DNA of 64,000 nucleotides from Nitrosotalea devaniterrae (GTDB lineage Archaea > Thermoproteota > Nitrososphaeria > Nitrososphaerales > Nitrosopumilaceae), in NCBI GenBank assembly GCA_900065925.1, contig LN890280.1, positions 1,666,451 through 1,730,450 of the forward strand, read 5' to 3'. Made by a program: the position numbers and the translations under genes. The notes under the pieces were generated by a model, which ran no database searches, was not told the origin of the DNA, and saw only the letters and a program-made list of their open reading frames with translations. Shown piece by piece: positions 33,470 through 39,121 of the stretch (within the stretch, counting starts at the first letter, position 1; each line of letters begins with the position of its first letter).

Positions 33470-36127
33470 TTATCCAGATGTACAGCCGCTATATCCGCAT
33501 TCTATACACACACTACATCCTTCTGCAAATACCAAGTTGTTTTTACATGTAGGACACAGTCTTTCTTCCATTTGTTCTTGTGTAAGTGCCGGTGCTGGAG
33601 AAGATACCACACTATCTGGAATTTTTATCTGAAGTGCTCTTTCTATCTCAGTTTTTAGATATGCATTTGTGACATTCTTTGAGATGTAGTCTGTTACATA
33701 ACCACTTGGGGTTACTTGGAAGTTCTTTTGAACATTATTTCCTGTCATATGCAATACTTGCTCATGTCTTGAACCATCTCTGAATACAGTTATTCCTTTC
33801 AGACCAAGATCATGTGCTAATAGATATGCAGCCTTTACATCATCTGATGATACATCATTTGGCATGTTGATTGTCTTGGCAATTGCATTACCTATCCAGC
33901 GCTGCCATACTCCTTGAGCCATTAAATGATCAGCCCAGTGAATATCCATTGCTGTAACAAATATTTTCTGCATCCATTCTGGAATTTCGGCTATTCCCTT
34001 TACAGAACCATAGTTATTTGCAATCTTTTCTAGAATTTGATCATTGTATAGACCATGTTCTTTGAGTACTGCTTCAAAGATTTTATTTGTATAGAAGAAT
34101 CTACCCACAGTTACTCTCTTTTCAAAGACTAGAGCAAACATTGGCTCCATCCCGTTTGAACAATCAGATATCATTGATAGTGTACCAGTAGGAGCAACTG
34201 TTGTTGTTAGAACATTTCTGATACCATGTTTCTGGATTTTGGCAATCAATGCATCCCAGTCATAAGTACGAGCGCTTTTTGGTTTCTCATAGAATCCAGC
34301 AACAGGAATTTTACCTTCTGGGTATTCTGTTTTTGAACATAGTGGGAATGGTCCTCGTGTCTTTGCAAGTGCAATGCTTTCTTCCATAGAATAGTATGTC
34401 AGTGCTTCAGCAAGTTTCTCTTGGAATTCATATCCTTCTTGTGAGTTGTATGGGATTCGTAATTTGAACAATAGATCTGCAACGCCCATCACTCCAAGTC
34501 CTATTCTTCTAGAGTCTTTTGATGCCTTGTCAATTTCTGGAATTGGATATGTATTGACATCTATTATGTTGTCAAGGAATCTTGTTGTCTTTCTTATGGT
34601 TTCTTCATATCTTTGCCAGTCAAATTCGTATTGTCCATCTGCTTTTCTTTTGACATAATTAGATAGATTGATCGAACCAAGGTTGCATGATTCGTATGGA
34701 TAGAGACTTTGTTCTCCACATGGATTTGTTGCGCGTATTGGTTGGCCTCTTGCTTTTGCAAAAACATTGTATTTGTTTATGATATCAAAGAAAATTAATC
34801 CTGGTTCACCACTCTTCCATGCAGAAAGTGCAATCAGATCAATTAGATGATGTGCGTTTATTTCTCTTATAGCTGTTTTATCTTTTGGAGCTCTAAGAGT
34901 GAATTTTCCATCTGCTGAATTAACAAGGGCTTCCCAAAAGTCTTCCCAAACTCCCACACTTACGTTAAAGTTTTCAAGAACACCTGGTTTTGTCTTTGCA
35001 GTGATAAACTTTTCAATATCTGGATGCCATGCTTCTATGATGCCCATATTTGCACCTCTTCGTTTTCCACCTTGTTTGACTACTTCAGTAACAGTGTTGA
35101 TGATGTTCATAAAAGAGACAGGACCTGAAGCTACTCCAGATGTTGAGGCTACCATATCTCCCTCTTGTCTTAAATCAGAATAGTTGATACCCACTCCACC
35201 TCCAGATTTGAATATCAATGCAGCATCAGATGATGACTTCATTATTTTTTCCATGTCATCTTCCATTGCAAGAACAAAACATGCTGAAAGTTGACCTAGA
35301 CGTGCACCAGCATTCATCATAGTTGGAGAATTTGGCAAAAAGTCTTGAGCAACCATCAAATCTGCAGCTTCTTTGATGCGTTCAGTATATTGTTCAAACT
35401 TGTTTGCAGCCAACATAGTCAACAATTCTCTAAAGTTGACTTTCATCTGGCCATGTTTTGCCAAATCTACGTAGTGATTTATCAGTGATCTAAAGTGATA
35501 TTTGTTAAGATAGTATTTTCCTATCTTGAATTTATAGTCAAAGTCATCAAGTTTGTCTAGATACCTTACTGCTTCCTCTACATTCTGGGTGTTGCCACCT
35601 TCAATTTGAAATATTGAAGGATCTCTGATTACATCAGCAATACCTACCAAAATAGCTACTCTTTCAAACATTTCGCCTGGACTTTCAGTTATCTGACCTT
35701 TGTTGTTTCTAAGCAGATATCTTGATGCCAAGACTCTCAAGCAATTAAGATCAAACTTCTTTGCCACACTATCAAGAGACTTAGATTCTAAAACTTTCAT
35801 TTTTTCTTCTCGAACTCTTCGTCGTTCGTGTCTGTACAAAATGTACGCCTTTGCGATCTCACCTAGTCCTTCCTCAATTAGAGTAGACTCTACCATATCT
35901 TGAACATCCTCTACGCTTGGTGCTTCTGAGCCAGAAAATCCCCGATTCACGAGTTTTGTAAGAACATGGTTAGCTAGCTTGTCTGCTAATCCATGATCTG
36001 ATCTTCCGCAAGCAACAAGTGCTTTGTAGATTGCGTTTGAAATTTTATCTCTTTGGAAATCTGATACTCGACCATCGCGCTTCTTTACTTGCAAGATCGA
36101 ATTTTCTATTTGTGAAAAATCTGTCAA
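33470..36127 (-). CDS. nrdJ: Ribonucleotide reductase class II, adenosylcobalamin-dependent
   Basis: An 885-residue enzyme making deoxyribonucleotides with B12. The N-terminal ATP-cone (about 12-105: VKKRDGRVSDFQRDKISNAI) is the allosteric domain. The catalytic barrel shows SACFVLAMEDDM, NPCGEQ, NLGSINLSN and TTTVAPTGTLSMI. The C-terminus carries a Cys cluster (CPTCKNNLVFAEGCSVCIEC, then GYSGCTSG) that acts as the redox shuttle. Starts at TTG 36127. The window also carries a cobalamin operon. A 229-nt gap with ATTTAACTCCC-like promoter sequence precedes it. Confidence 0.95.
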   Translation of the reverse strand: MTDFSQIENSILQVKKRDGRVSDFQRDKISNAIYKALVACGRSDHGLADKLANHVLTKLVNRGFSGSEAPSVEDVQDMVESTLIEEGLGEIAKAYILYRHERRRVREEKMKVLESKSLDSVAKKFDLNCLRVLASRYLLRNNKGQITESPGEMFERVAILVGIADVIRDPSIFQIEGGNTQNVEEAVRYLDKLDDFDYKFKIGKYYLNKYHFRSLINHYVDLAKHGQMKVNFRELLTMLAANKFEQYTERIKEAADLMVAQDFLPNSPTMMNAGARLGQLSACFVLAMEDDMEKIMKSSSDAALIFKSGGGVGINYSDLRQEGDMVASTSGVASGPVSFMNIINTVTEVVKQGGKRRGANMGIIEAWHPDIEKFITAKTKPGVLENFNVSVGVWEDFWEALVNSADGKFTLRAPKDKTAIREINAHHLIDLIALSAWKSGEPGLIFFDIINKYNVFAKARGQPIRATNPCGEQSLYPYESCNLGSINLSNYVKRKADGQYEFDWQRYEETIRKTTRFLDNIIDVNTYPIPEIDKASKDSRRIGLGVMGVADLLFKLRIPYNSQEGYEFQEKLAEALTYYSMEESIALAKTRGPFPLCSKTEYPEGKIPVAGFYEKPKSARTYDWDALIAKIQKHGIRNVLTTTVAPTGTLSMISDCSNGMEPMFALVFEKRVTVGRFFYTNKIFEAVLKEHGLYNDQILEKIANNYGSVKGIAEIPEWMQKIFVTAMDIHWADHLMAQGVWQRWIGNAIAKTINMPNDVSSDDVKAAYLLAHDLGLKGITVFRDGSRHEQVLHMTGNNVQKNFQVTPSGYVTDYISKNVTNAYLKTEIERALQIKIPDSVVSSPAPALTQEQMEERLCPTCKNNLVFAEGCSVCIECGYSGCTSG

Positions 36128-36356
36128 CTTACTCCCCTCAACCCTAGCAAATGGGAGTTAAATAAACACTGCGGCAAAAAATAATTTTCTAAAGCTAAAC
36201 TTTGGATCAATTTTGTTGACACCGGTACAATTTCCATAGTATTAGATCATCTCAAGGCAAAATAAATTTTCAGTAATTCATCAAAAATTTAATATAAATT
36301 CCAGGTTAATTCAGAATTTTTATTCACTAAACCATTAGTAGTTCATAGAACGAAAC
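36128..36356. other. Intergenic region upstream of nrdJ
   Basis: This 229-nt AT-rich gap separates the NrdD-like gene from nrdJ, both on the minus strand. Near nrdJ the minus strand reads GTTTATTTAACTCCC about 28-42 nt before the start, a possible TATA region. An ACCGGT hexamer at 36221-36226 lies in the middle. No RNA gene or riboswitch fold is evident. Confidence 0.3.
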
Positions 36357-38453
36357 TTATGCCAGTATGTAAGGTGACTTGCACACTGAGCACTTTTCAG
36401 CGATCTTTTCCTCTTTGAGTCCACAGTTGCTACATATAGGCACCTTTTTGATGGGTCTGAAGGATCCTAATAGATCGCCTGCTTTCTCTATTGCCTTCTT
36501 TATTCCTGAAGAATCCATTGTGTCTGGGATCTTTAACTGAACTAATAACCCACCATTGAGTATTTTTGAGAAATAGTTTGATTCGACGATTCTTTCATTC
36601 TTAGGATTCATTTCTATTATCTCAGAGGCATCAAGAATAATGCCTTCTGAATATGACTCTCCCATGGCATGGTTATTAATTGACATTTTACCATATTTTT
36701 CACCATCAAGAGATGAGAAGCGACTTGCAGCATCACTTTCAGTCATGGTCACGATGACATTATCTCCCATTTCCTTTCCTTTCTTTGTGGCTACCTCCAT
36801 GGCAGTGTTTATCACTTTAGCCAGAATTTCGTGTCCAGCCTTGTTATTTTCATATCCTAGAATACCATAAACCGCTTCCTTAAGTCCGATCAGATTAACA
36901 ACTAGAGTCACAGATCCCTTTTGCATATACTGTGTATTGTTTGCAAGAATTGGATTAAGACCGCGCCTTGTTAGATCAGATATCTCCTTCTTTCTAAGAG
37001 ACATAGCTGCTAGTGATGGCTTCATTAATAGTGCCAATCTTGCCCTGAAATAAGTTTCATCTTTGTTTGATTCAAAAGCAAGTCTTGGCATATTGATCGA
37101 CAAAGATTCTAAATTGATCGAAGTTGTTCCAACATTCTTGGCATCTCCCCGTGCCAACCCTTTGTTGGATACTAATCCTTTAGCAAACATAACGTGTCCA
37201 CCTAATGCAATTACATCGGCTAAAATTTCTGAATAGTCACTTATCTTGGCTTTTTCATAGTCAATTACCAATCCTATGGAAGGAAGTGGTGTTGATTTTA
37301 CATATTTCTTGTAGGCTTGAAGAATAATTCCAACTAGTTTTGGTTCCATTCCAATAGAGATTCTAAACGAAGCAAGTGTTCCATTCTTTCCATACTTGGG
37401 TCCTGTGGATATTTTTGCAAAACAACTTGCAAGTTTTTCTTCAATCTCAGGTAAATTCTTAGAATATTTTTGTAATACAGTAACTAATCCATCCATAACT
37501 ACTTCTTGCGATGCCTCTTTTATGAGAAGACATGCTAGTAGAGACAAGGAAGTAAAAAGATCGTCTAGTGAACTTGGTGATGATGTCCTTGTTACGCCCA
37601 AGAATTTTCCTCTCAAGTCAACGCCTTCTTCGATAAGTTCCTTAATGTTTACAAATATCGTATCGGGTAGAAGTGACCATAATCCAGCATTTGTTATATG
37701 AAGATCTCCTGAGAGATGAGAATCAGCTACATCTTTAGGTAAAGTGTTTAAGACGAGATATTCTCCAAATACATTCTGTCCTGTTTTAAATAGTAAACCC
37801 TCAACTCCATTATGGATACCATCCACATTGGTTAGCATCTCATGAATATCATAGCCAGGCAATCCAAATCTTGCTAGTTTATGCCTATAATCTTCATGGC
37901 CTTGTTCTAAGAGAACAGAATTGACCATTTCACGTATAAGTGAAGATGTAAGATAAGATGTCTGAAATTTGTATATTCTATTCTCTACTTCTTCAGTTAT
38001 TTTTTGAGCAAGCTCAAGTGGAAGGCTACCTTCTCGAACCAATGATTGAATGATCTTATGAGAATTGAATTCTTCTATTGATTCATGTGAAGTTCGGACA
38101 TACATCTTGCCACTTTCAATAATAGATCGCTCTTCGATCTGTCTTGCAAGACTTAGTACTAGTTTTCCCAAGTTAGTAATAGTATATCTTCTTTCAGACT
38201 TGTTTAGGGCCACAAGAGACTGTCTTAGTAATTTTCTCAAGTGATATGCAAACTTGCCACTTTCTTTTTTTGATTTGAAACCGGCAAGAGATTTTAATTC
38301 AGAATAAGTAAGAGGACCTTTTGAGTTTAGGATACGTAGAATATCAATTCTGTTTGGACTTGCCATAACAGAGAAAATCATTCTTACACGTTTTGATGCT
38401 GATTGTAATATTCCGCCACGTTTTGGATCGCCAAAGTCCTCGCTCAGTTCCAT
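36357..38453 (-). CDS. HTH + ATP-cone + NrdD-like protein lacking catalytic residues
   Basis: 698 residues. It has an N-terminal ArsR-like winged HTH (20-110; SPNRIDILRILNSKGPLTYS), an ATP-cone (117-195; FNSHKIIQSLVREGSL), then a large region resembling anaerobic class III ribonucleotide reductase (GDLHITNAGLWSLLPD at 249-264, SINMPRLAFESN at 452-463, YGKMSINNHAMG at 587-598). It ends in a four-Cys zinc ribbon (C674, C677, C688, C691). Only two other Cys exist (C308, C344), none in the central barrel loop. The chain stops after the zinc ribbon, so no RVCGY-type glycyl-radical motif is present. It is probably a nucleotide-sensing regulator or scaffold rather than a reductase, which is inference. 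Confidence 0.8.
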   Translation of the reverse strand: MELSEDFGDPKRGGILQSASKRVRMIFSVMASPNRIDILRILNSKGPLTYSELKSLAGFKSKKESGKFAYHLRKLLRQSLVALNKSERRYTITNLGKLVLSLARQIEERSIIESGKMYVRTSHESIEEFNSHKIIQSLVREGSLPLELAQKITEEVENRIYKFQTSYLTSSLIREMVNSVLLEQGHEDYRHKLARFGLPGYDIHEMLTNVDGIHNGVEGLLFKTGQNVFGEYLVLNTLPKDVADSHLSGDLHITNAGLWSLLPDTIFVNIKELIEEGVDLRGKFLGVTRTSSPSSLDDLFTSLSLLACLLIKEASQEVVMDGLVTVLQKYSKNLPEIEEKLASCFAKISTGPKYGKNGTLASFRISIGMEPKLVGIILQAYKKYVKSTPLPSIGLVIDYEKAKISDYSEILADVIALGGHVMFAKGLVSNKGLARGDAKNVGTTSINLESLSINMPRLAFESNKDETYFRARLALLMKPSLAAMSLRKKEISDLTRRGLNPILANNTQYMQKGSVTLVVNLIGLKEAVYGILGYENNKAGHEILAKVINTAMEVATKKGKEMGDNVIVTMTESDAASRFSSLDGEKYGKMSINNHAMGESYSEGIILDASEIIEMNPKNERIVESNYFSKILNGGLLVQLKIPDTMDSSGIKKAIEKAGDLLGSFRPIKKVPICSNCGLKEEKIAEKCSVCKSPYILA

Positions 38454-38520
38454 GGAATTGTCTAGAGGGCATCAGTAATTAAGATTTTTGACTAATTTGA
38501 TCTTACGGAAGCTTTTTAGA

Positions 38521-38682
38521 TCAGTTTTTCTGTACATCCACACTAAATTCGGATGGAGATAATGTTTGTCCACAAGATGGACATTTGCTGTTATATGGAC
38601 GCATTACGTCTTTTATTGATTTTAACATACGCATATTTGCAATTTTAGCTCCGCATCTTCCACAAACAACATCAACAGACAT
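38521..38682 (-). CDS. Small zinc-ribbon protein (53 aa)
   Basis: A short gene reading MSVDVVCGRCGAKIANMRML, then SIKDVMRPYNSKCPSCGQTL and ending SEFSVDVQKN. Two CxxC pairs 25 residues apart make a rubredoxin/zinc-ribbon-like site. It has an ATG start and sits in the gap between the DUF35 gene and the HTH/NrdD-like gene. No closer function can be assigned; such mini-ribbons often assist transcription or translation complexes. Confidence 0.75.
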   Translation of the reverse strand: MSVDVVCGRCGAKIANMRMLKSIKDVMRPYNSKCPSCGQTLSPSEFSVDVQKN

Positions 38683-38755
38683 TACAACCTAATGTCATTG
38701 TAAATATTATAAAAGAGATTTTTTGATTTTTTTTAATCAGTTTAATAAATTTGAT

Positions 38756-39121
38756 TTACTGCTTTTCGATTATGATTCCACGTTGATCATAACCTGTAAT
38801 TCTTGCTCTTGTTCCAAGAGGAAGATCTGTTGGAGACTTTATGTTGGCCATAAAACCAGAGATTCTCAACTCAGAATCGTCTAATTGCATAACTACCCAT
38901 GCATATGGAACATATTCTTCGTATCCATCTGGAGGTACCGTGATTATGGTATAAGTAACAATGAAGCCTTTACCATCAACTATGGTATTCTCAAATCCCT
39001 TATTTCCACAGTTTTGACAGAAATAGGTAGTAACAAGATGATGATGTCCACATTTTGTACATTTTCTAGTGAGAACCTTACCTAACTTGGCATTGTTGGA
39101 GAATTCTTCTTTTGTTAGCAA
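38756..39121 (-). CDS. DUF35 OB-fold zinc-ribbon protein, thiolase partner
   Basis: A 121-residue protein with a zinc ribbon (RKCTKCGHHHLVTTYFCQNC, about 20-40) followed by an OB fold (GFIVTYTIITVPPDGYEEYV, VVMQLDDSELRISGFM, LPLGTRARITGYDQRG). In archaea DUF35 bridges acetoacetyl-CoA thiolase and HMG-CoA synthase and channels the intermediate. The start is uncertain: TTG at 39121 abuts the thiolase stop, while GTG at 39130 would overlap it. Both keep the zinc ribbon intact. Confidence 0.9.
   Translation of the reverse strand: MLTKEEFSNNAKLGKVLTRKCTKCGHHHLVTTYFCQNCGNKGFENTIVDGKGFIVTYTIITVPPDGYEEYVPYAWVVMQLDDSELRISGFMANIKSPTDLPLGTRARITGYDQRGIIIEKQ

Follow-up and report, generated by a model that had tools for sequence, protein, structure and literature searches.

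A catalytically dead class III ribonucleotide reductase with a winged helix-turn-helix, predicted to regulate ribonucleotide reductase genes in Nitrososphaerales

The window analyzed here is a stretch of 64,000 nucleotides from the genome of Nitrosotalea devaniterrae (1.8 Mb, single contig). On its reverse strand it carries a gene for a protein of 698 residues, which we call the regulator in anticipation of its predicted role, and, 229 bp further downstream in the same orientation, nrdJ, which encodes a B12-dependent ribonucleotide reductase (RNR). The features of the locus are the following:

36357..38453, reverse strand: gene of the HTH-ATP-cone-NrdD-like regulator, 698 aa, defined by its open reading frame, its domain matches and its orthologs in the order
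38124..38402, reverse strand: winged HTH, residues 18-110 (Pfam HTH_20/DUF7347; conserved in orthologs)
37887..38105, reverse strand: ATP-cone, residues 117-189 (Pfam)
36450..37856, reverse strand: NrdD-like body without catalytic Cys, residues 200-668 (PF13597, AlphaFold2 model and alignment)
36360..36449, reverse strand: C-terminal zinc ribbon, residues 669-698; the chain stops where the glycyl-radical loop would start
33470..36127, reverse strand: nrdJ, class II (B12-dependent) RNR with an ATP-cone of its own, 885 aa (TIGR02504)
36206..36220, reverse strand: palindrome GTCAA-N5-TTGAT upstream of nrdJ, within a conserved block; candidate binding site
36157..36167, reverse strand: TATA-like box of nrdJ, GTTTATTTAAC, kept in the alignment; putative function
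38478..38492, reverse strand: palindrome GTCAA-N5-TTAAT in the regulator's own promoter, overlapping its TATA-like box; candidate autoregulatory site
38476..38484, reverse strand: TATA-like box of the regulator gene, TCTTAATTA, approximately 26 bp before the ATG, kept in the alignment; putative function

Three regions of the regulator matched Pfam families above the curated cut-offs, namely HTH_20/DUF7347 (PF12840, PF24038) at residues 26-100, the ATP-cone (PF03477) at residues 117-189 (E 9e-10) and NRDD (PF13597) at residues 442-693 (E 4e-23). By the standard of the NCBIfam NrdD equivalog TIGR02487, for which it scored 75.5 bits against a cut-off of 326, the protein does not belong to the NrdD enzyme family. 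NCBIfam gave no match to the NrdR model TIGR00244 either, and both the domain order and the length of 698 residues differ from those of NrdR. The neighboring nrdJ, which has a TTG start and a Cys-rich, zinc-ribbon-like tail, reached 735 bits with TIGR02504 (cut-off 400). ATP-cones were present in just two proteins of the genome, the regulator and the nrdJ product, and the genome is thus without NrdR. An Rfam scan of positions 36050-38900 for riboswitches, such as those for cobalamin, gave no match at E 1.

Class III RNRs (NrdD) are characterized by a thiyl Cys with a partner Cys (C79 and C290 in the T4 enzyme) and by a C-terminal glycyl-radical motif, RxxGY. The regulator possesses exactly six Cys residues (308, 344, 674, 677, 688 and 691), the last four of which make up the zinc ribbon, after which the chain lacks an RxTGY motif. 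The original prediction had described precisely this composition, six Cys with four in the zinc ribbon and no glycyl-radical motif, and the sequence bears it out. We aligned 46 HTH-bearing family members with nine canonical archaeal NrdDs; in eight of these the RxTG[YF] tail is intact, while the one from L081 is cut short. In the columns of C175, C384 and C385 of the L074 enzyme, Cys was found in 9/9 canonical NrdDs and in 0/46 HTH proteins, so that the lack of catalytic Cys proposed for this one protein extends to the whole family. The zinc-ribbon Cys were retained in nearly all 46. The Nitrososphaerales forms have no glycyl loop, and in other HTH proteins it is degraded. L076, L077 and L091, from one family, display a RIYGRY-like remnant of the loop, in which the Gly is in place and the catalytic Cys are gone; such eroded remnants suggest descent from an active NrdD. 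When the genome was searched for another glycyl-radical gene, PF01228 gave 0 matches and PF13597 matched the regulator ORF only, and it therefore encodes no separate glycyl-radical subunit, a finding that the original prediction had named as grounds for refutation.

An AlphaFold2 model was calculated from 49 sequences (the window and contigs of relatives), and was confident over most of residues 290-698 and poor for residues 1-250. In Foldseek searches the model matched class III RNR structures over approximately 600 columns (best E 9e-17), with weaker matches to class I and class II RNR structures, NrdJ included. The match to the NrdD fold spans the middle region, where Pfam had found nothing, and together the Pfam and AlphaFold2 results confirm the predicted succession of HTH, ATP-cone, NrdD-like body and terminal zinc ribbon, with the NrdD fold itself recovered. 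In a phylogenetic tree, HTH proteins and canonical NrdDs fell on opposite sides of one branch with a support of 100/100; the tree is unrooted, and is thus compatible with either group being ancestral.

Computation thereby strongly supports the assignment of the regulator family as a catalytically dead NrdD. That the protein is still a reductase, or another radical enzyme with unusual chemistry, would be in keeping with the overall NrdD fold, which is kept, and the NrdD of T. maritima also lacks one of the expected Cys (PMC4390871). Nevertheless, none of the three catalytic positions holds a Cys in 46/46 proteins, the Nitrososphaerales forms have no glycyl motif, and an intact RNR gene lies alongside in nearly every locus of the order, and we regard such an activity as very improbable.

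Orthologs were identified in 39/41 close relatives and, across the order Nitrososphaerales, in 103 of the 106 genomes of good quality, with the frame intact almost always. In 200 genomes sampled across the phylum, 146 gave matches, some of them to the HTH only or to canonical NrdDs. The search of genome contigs confirmed 537 relatives, of which the 80 closest were covered, and sampling of the family was within Thermoproteota. A pseudogene decaying beside a replacement nrdJ could account for the loss of catalytic residues; this reading is already refuted by conservation, since the gene persists with its frame across the order, its HTH is near-invariant and its promoter elements are conserved, and we give it practically no weight.

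The regulator gene is closely linked to RNR genes. Among Nitrosopumilaceae, the gene that follows the regulator on the same strand was nrdJ in all 78 loci that were long enough, and in the order as a whole the regulator was immediately followed by an RNR gene of the same orientation in 73 of the 74 loci that offered more than 900 bp (L186, whose nrdJ frame is over-extended at its start, was counted as linked). The sole exception, L235, is a copy of 565 aa without a zinc ribbon. The downstream RNRs of the order are class II enzymes of differing types, with or without an ATP-cone and some with a TSCPD domain. In other lineages, the gene downstream of the regulator was a canonical class III nrdD (L064, L073, L074, L075, L089 and L280, as well as L081, where it is apparently frameshifted), an arrangement that the original prediction did not foresee, and in L067 the neighbor was another nrdJ. 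Outside the order, many copies of the regulator lie away from RNR genes.

We then compared the window protein with 35 more distant Nitrosopumilaceae relatives, to which it is 64-72% identical overall. The HTH was 98.7% identical and its recognition region 99.7%, as compared to 91% for the ATP-cone and 57-66% for the reductase body. Conservation that peaks in the HTH is the pattern to be expected if the DNA target is fixed. Within the cone, V119, E127 and K133 correspond by alignment and spacing to V48, E56 and K62 of NrdR, that is, to three of the four key cone positions, while the position of NrdR K50 is occupied by T121, the canonical Lys-Arg of the cone being replaced by Thr-Ser. In NrdR, substitution of V48, E56 and K62 impairs nucleotide and DNA binding (PMC12176259).

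These data bear on whether the protein might bind DNA with a body that serves solely as a dimerization scaffold, a cone that no longer binds nucleotides and some other signal as input. The Thr-Ser replacement and the faster divergence of the body relative to the HTH and cone are in line with this reading; the cone, however, is far better conserved than the body, retains V119, E127 and K133 at NrdR contact positions, and is of the same VRTS-type variant as the cones of active archaeal NrdDs of the phylum. We consider the scaffold explanation unlikely, and nucleotide sensing by the regulator plausible.

All 512 5-mers were ranked, with no prior motif, in 51 non-redundant intergenic regions between regulator and RNR genes from outside Nitrosopumilaceae. 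GTCAA was the most enriched (68 seen, 24 expected, z 8.9). Upstream of the regulator gene itself, where 40 non-redundant regions were ranked, it came second (z 5.8), after the overlapping GGTCA. Stacking of the GTCAA sites placed an inverted half-site exactly 6 bp away, yielding the 16-bp dyad GTYAA-N6-TTRAC, whose half-sites are one helical turn apart. With at most one mismatch, 37 dyads were counted in the RNR intergenic regions versus 2.0 in shuffled sequences (maximum 8), an approximately 18-fold excess, and 19 versus 1.2 (maximum 6) upstream of the regulator gene; the strict dyad was present in 29/51 of the RNR intergenic regions.

Since the consensus was built from the same regions, a fair comparison has to come from the profile of spacings, from control regions and from a negative control. 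The excess was seen at a spacing of 6 only, other spacings giving 0-6 matches. Dyad density was 3.4/kb in the RNR intergenic regions versus 0.27/kb in 29.5 kb of control intergenic sequence, approximately 13-fold higher. The negative control consisted of RNR promoters from 16 genomes that belong to the same phylum but do not carry the regulator; here GTCAA was no more frequent than by chance (5 seen, 5.3 expected), and the dyad was not detected. GTCAA was not enriched upstream of the 750-aa copies that are unlinked to RNR genes.

In Nitrosopumilaceae, the genome studied here included, the dyad takes a form with an N5 spacer, versus N6 in most of the order. In the window this form is located at 36206-36220, in a block upstream of nrdJ that the alignment shows to be conserved across Nitrosopumilaceae, and at 38478-38492, within a conserved element of the regulator's own promoter. 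The intervals 36128-36356 and 38454-38520, put forward by the original prediction as candidate DNA-binding regions, contain one palindrome each. These two sites are among eight such matches in the 64 kb. Within Nitrosopumilaceae, the N5 dyad with at most one mismatch was found in 49/80 nrdJ promoters and 72/81 self promoters, indicating that the site is degenerate in places. The local form has 20 exact matches in the whole genome, of which only the nrdJ and self sites are non-coding and within 100 bp upstream of the start of a gene on the same strand, a count that is purely descriptive as the form was chosen partly from the window's own sites. As a genome-wide regulon finder the local pattern was rejected: its 20 matches, mostly inside ORFs, are close to the 24 obtained with a reversed-pattern control, and no wider regulon is claimed.

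Paired palindromes at the RNR and self promoters, tracking the presence of the regulator, are thus strongly supported by computation, and the HTH is the part of the protein that would bind them. The original prediction had offered as an alternative that the protein is an allosteric partner, and one may picture its target as the RNR protein itself: it would serve NrdJ as a chaperone or allosteric subunit, with the HTH adding little. The gene adjoins the RNR gene, NrdD and NrdJ have a common fold and both dimerize, and the model gave weak matches to NrdJ structures. However, the neighboring RNRs comprise several types from two classes, which makes a single protein interface unlikely, the HTH is the most conserved part of the protein, and the palindromes at both promoters follow the presence of the regulator. 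This alternative is not needed to explain the data, and we judge it to be improbable.

In our assessment, the protein is most probably a dedicated RNR transcription regulator, made from a dead NrdD and a winged HTH, that would bind the palindromes of both promoters. The catalytic loss, the linkage, the almost frozen HTH and the paired palindromes all support the role foreseen in the original prediction, that of a former reductase now serving as a transcription factor for nrdJ. In the mechanism that we propose, a dead class III reductase would have gained a winged HTH in front of its ATP-cone, and dimers of the resulting protein would use the HTH to bind the palindrome in the downstream RNR promoter and that in the promoter of the regulator gene. 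Sensing of ATP/dATP or other dNTPs, which would set the affinity for DNA, would fall to the ATP-cone and perhaps also to the reductase body. At the regulator's own promoter the effect would be autorepression, as is suggested by the overlap between the palindrome and the TATA-like box; at nrdJ, where 38 bp separate the end of the palindrome from the TATA-like box further downstream, binding could lead to either activation or repression.

The protein is best read as an archaeal equivalent of the bacterial NrdR that arose from a retired reductase. As in NrdR, an ATP-cone would be part of a dedicated regulator of RNR genes and of itself, with candidate sites that are 16-bp palindromes (PMC9110341, PMC12176259); their sequence, GTYAA-N6-TTRAC, would be a point of difference from the NrdR boxes. 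The DNA-binding part, in contrast, is a winged HTH instead of a zinc ribbon, and a whole NrdD-like body brings the protein to 698 aa, whereas NrdR consists of a zinc ribbon followed by an ATP-cone, in approximately 150 aa. NrdR is rare in archaea (PMC9110341). With class III NrdD the regulator has in common the ATP-cone, of the VRTS type common to archaeal NrdDs, the NrdD fold and the zinc ribbon, in the same order, and differs from it by the absence of catalytic Cys and glycyl radical and by the extra HTH. The HTH resembles those of the ArsR/SmtB type in its matches to HTH_20 and DUF7347, and a palindromic site suits a dimer; unlike ArsR/SmtB-type proteins, the regulator has no evident metal-sensing role and its HTH is fused to a large pseudoenzyme. 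BirA also joins an enzyme scaffold to an HTH that regulates its own pathway, but is still an active enzyme, whereas the reductase activity has been lost here.

To our knowledge, the control of the supply of DNA building blocks in archaea is largely unknown, and in the open-access literature, to which our search was confined, we found no description of the HTH-ATP-cone-NrdD-like architecture. The present analysis names a candidate regulator, DNA site and target together, all of which are open to in vitro testing. If the proposal is true, an essential metabolic enzyme has been turned into a sensor of its own pathway and kept beside changing enzyme types. There is about an even chance that the dead-RNR family constitutes a dNTP-sensing RNR switch in a major part of the archaea, which would keep the ATP-cone, and possibly the specificity site at the dimer interface, and so read dNTP pools as a reductase would; it is kept beside differing class II RNRs and precedes class III nrdD elsewhere.

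Several minor observations were made on the family and its neighborhoods. A shorter form of approximately 535-650 aa occurs in L070, L079, L080, L082, L083, L087 and L293-L301, in some cases without the zinc ribbon, and G046 carries a long and a short form together. A second copy in G013 (C10:1600-3678), 69% identical and from the same genus, may represent a second population in the assembly, and L138, titled as a Phycisphaerales bacterium MAG, has this archaeal locus with nrdJ and is probably mis-binned. The RNR beside the regulator at L095:3762-7211 contains an intein with a LAGLIDADG domain, and the canonical NrdD beside the regulator at L081:8889-11104 seems to be broken in two by a frameshift close to the zinc ribbon. 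By eye, a small glutaredoxin-like gene is located between the regulator and the canonical nrdD in L064 (between 5732 and 6131) and in L073; NrdH is similarly placed in some bacterial operons. Also by eye, unlinked copies (L061-L072, L266, L271, L291) lie, mostly in convergent orientation, near pyrB, pyrI, a UMP kinase gene or a gene of the nascent-polypeptide-associated complex.
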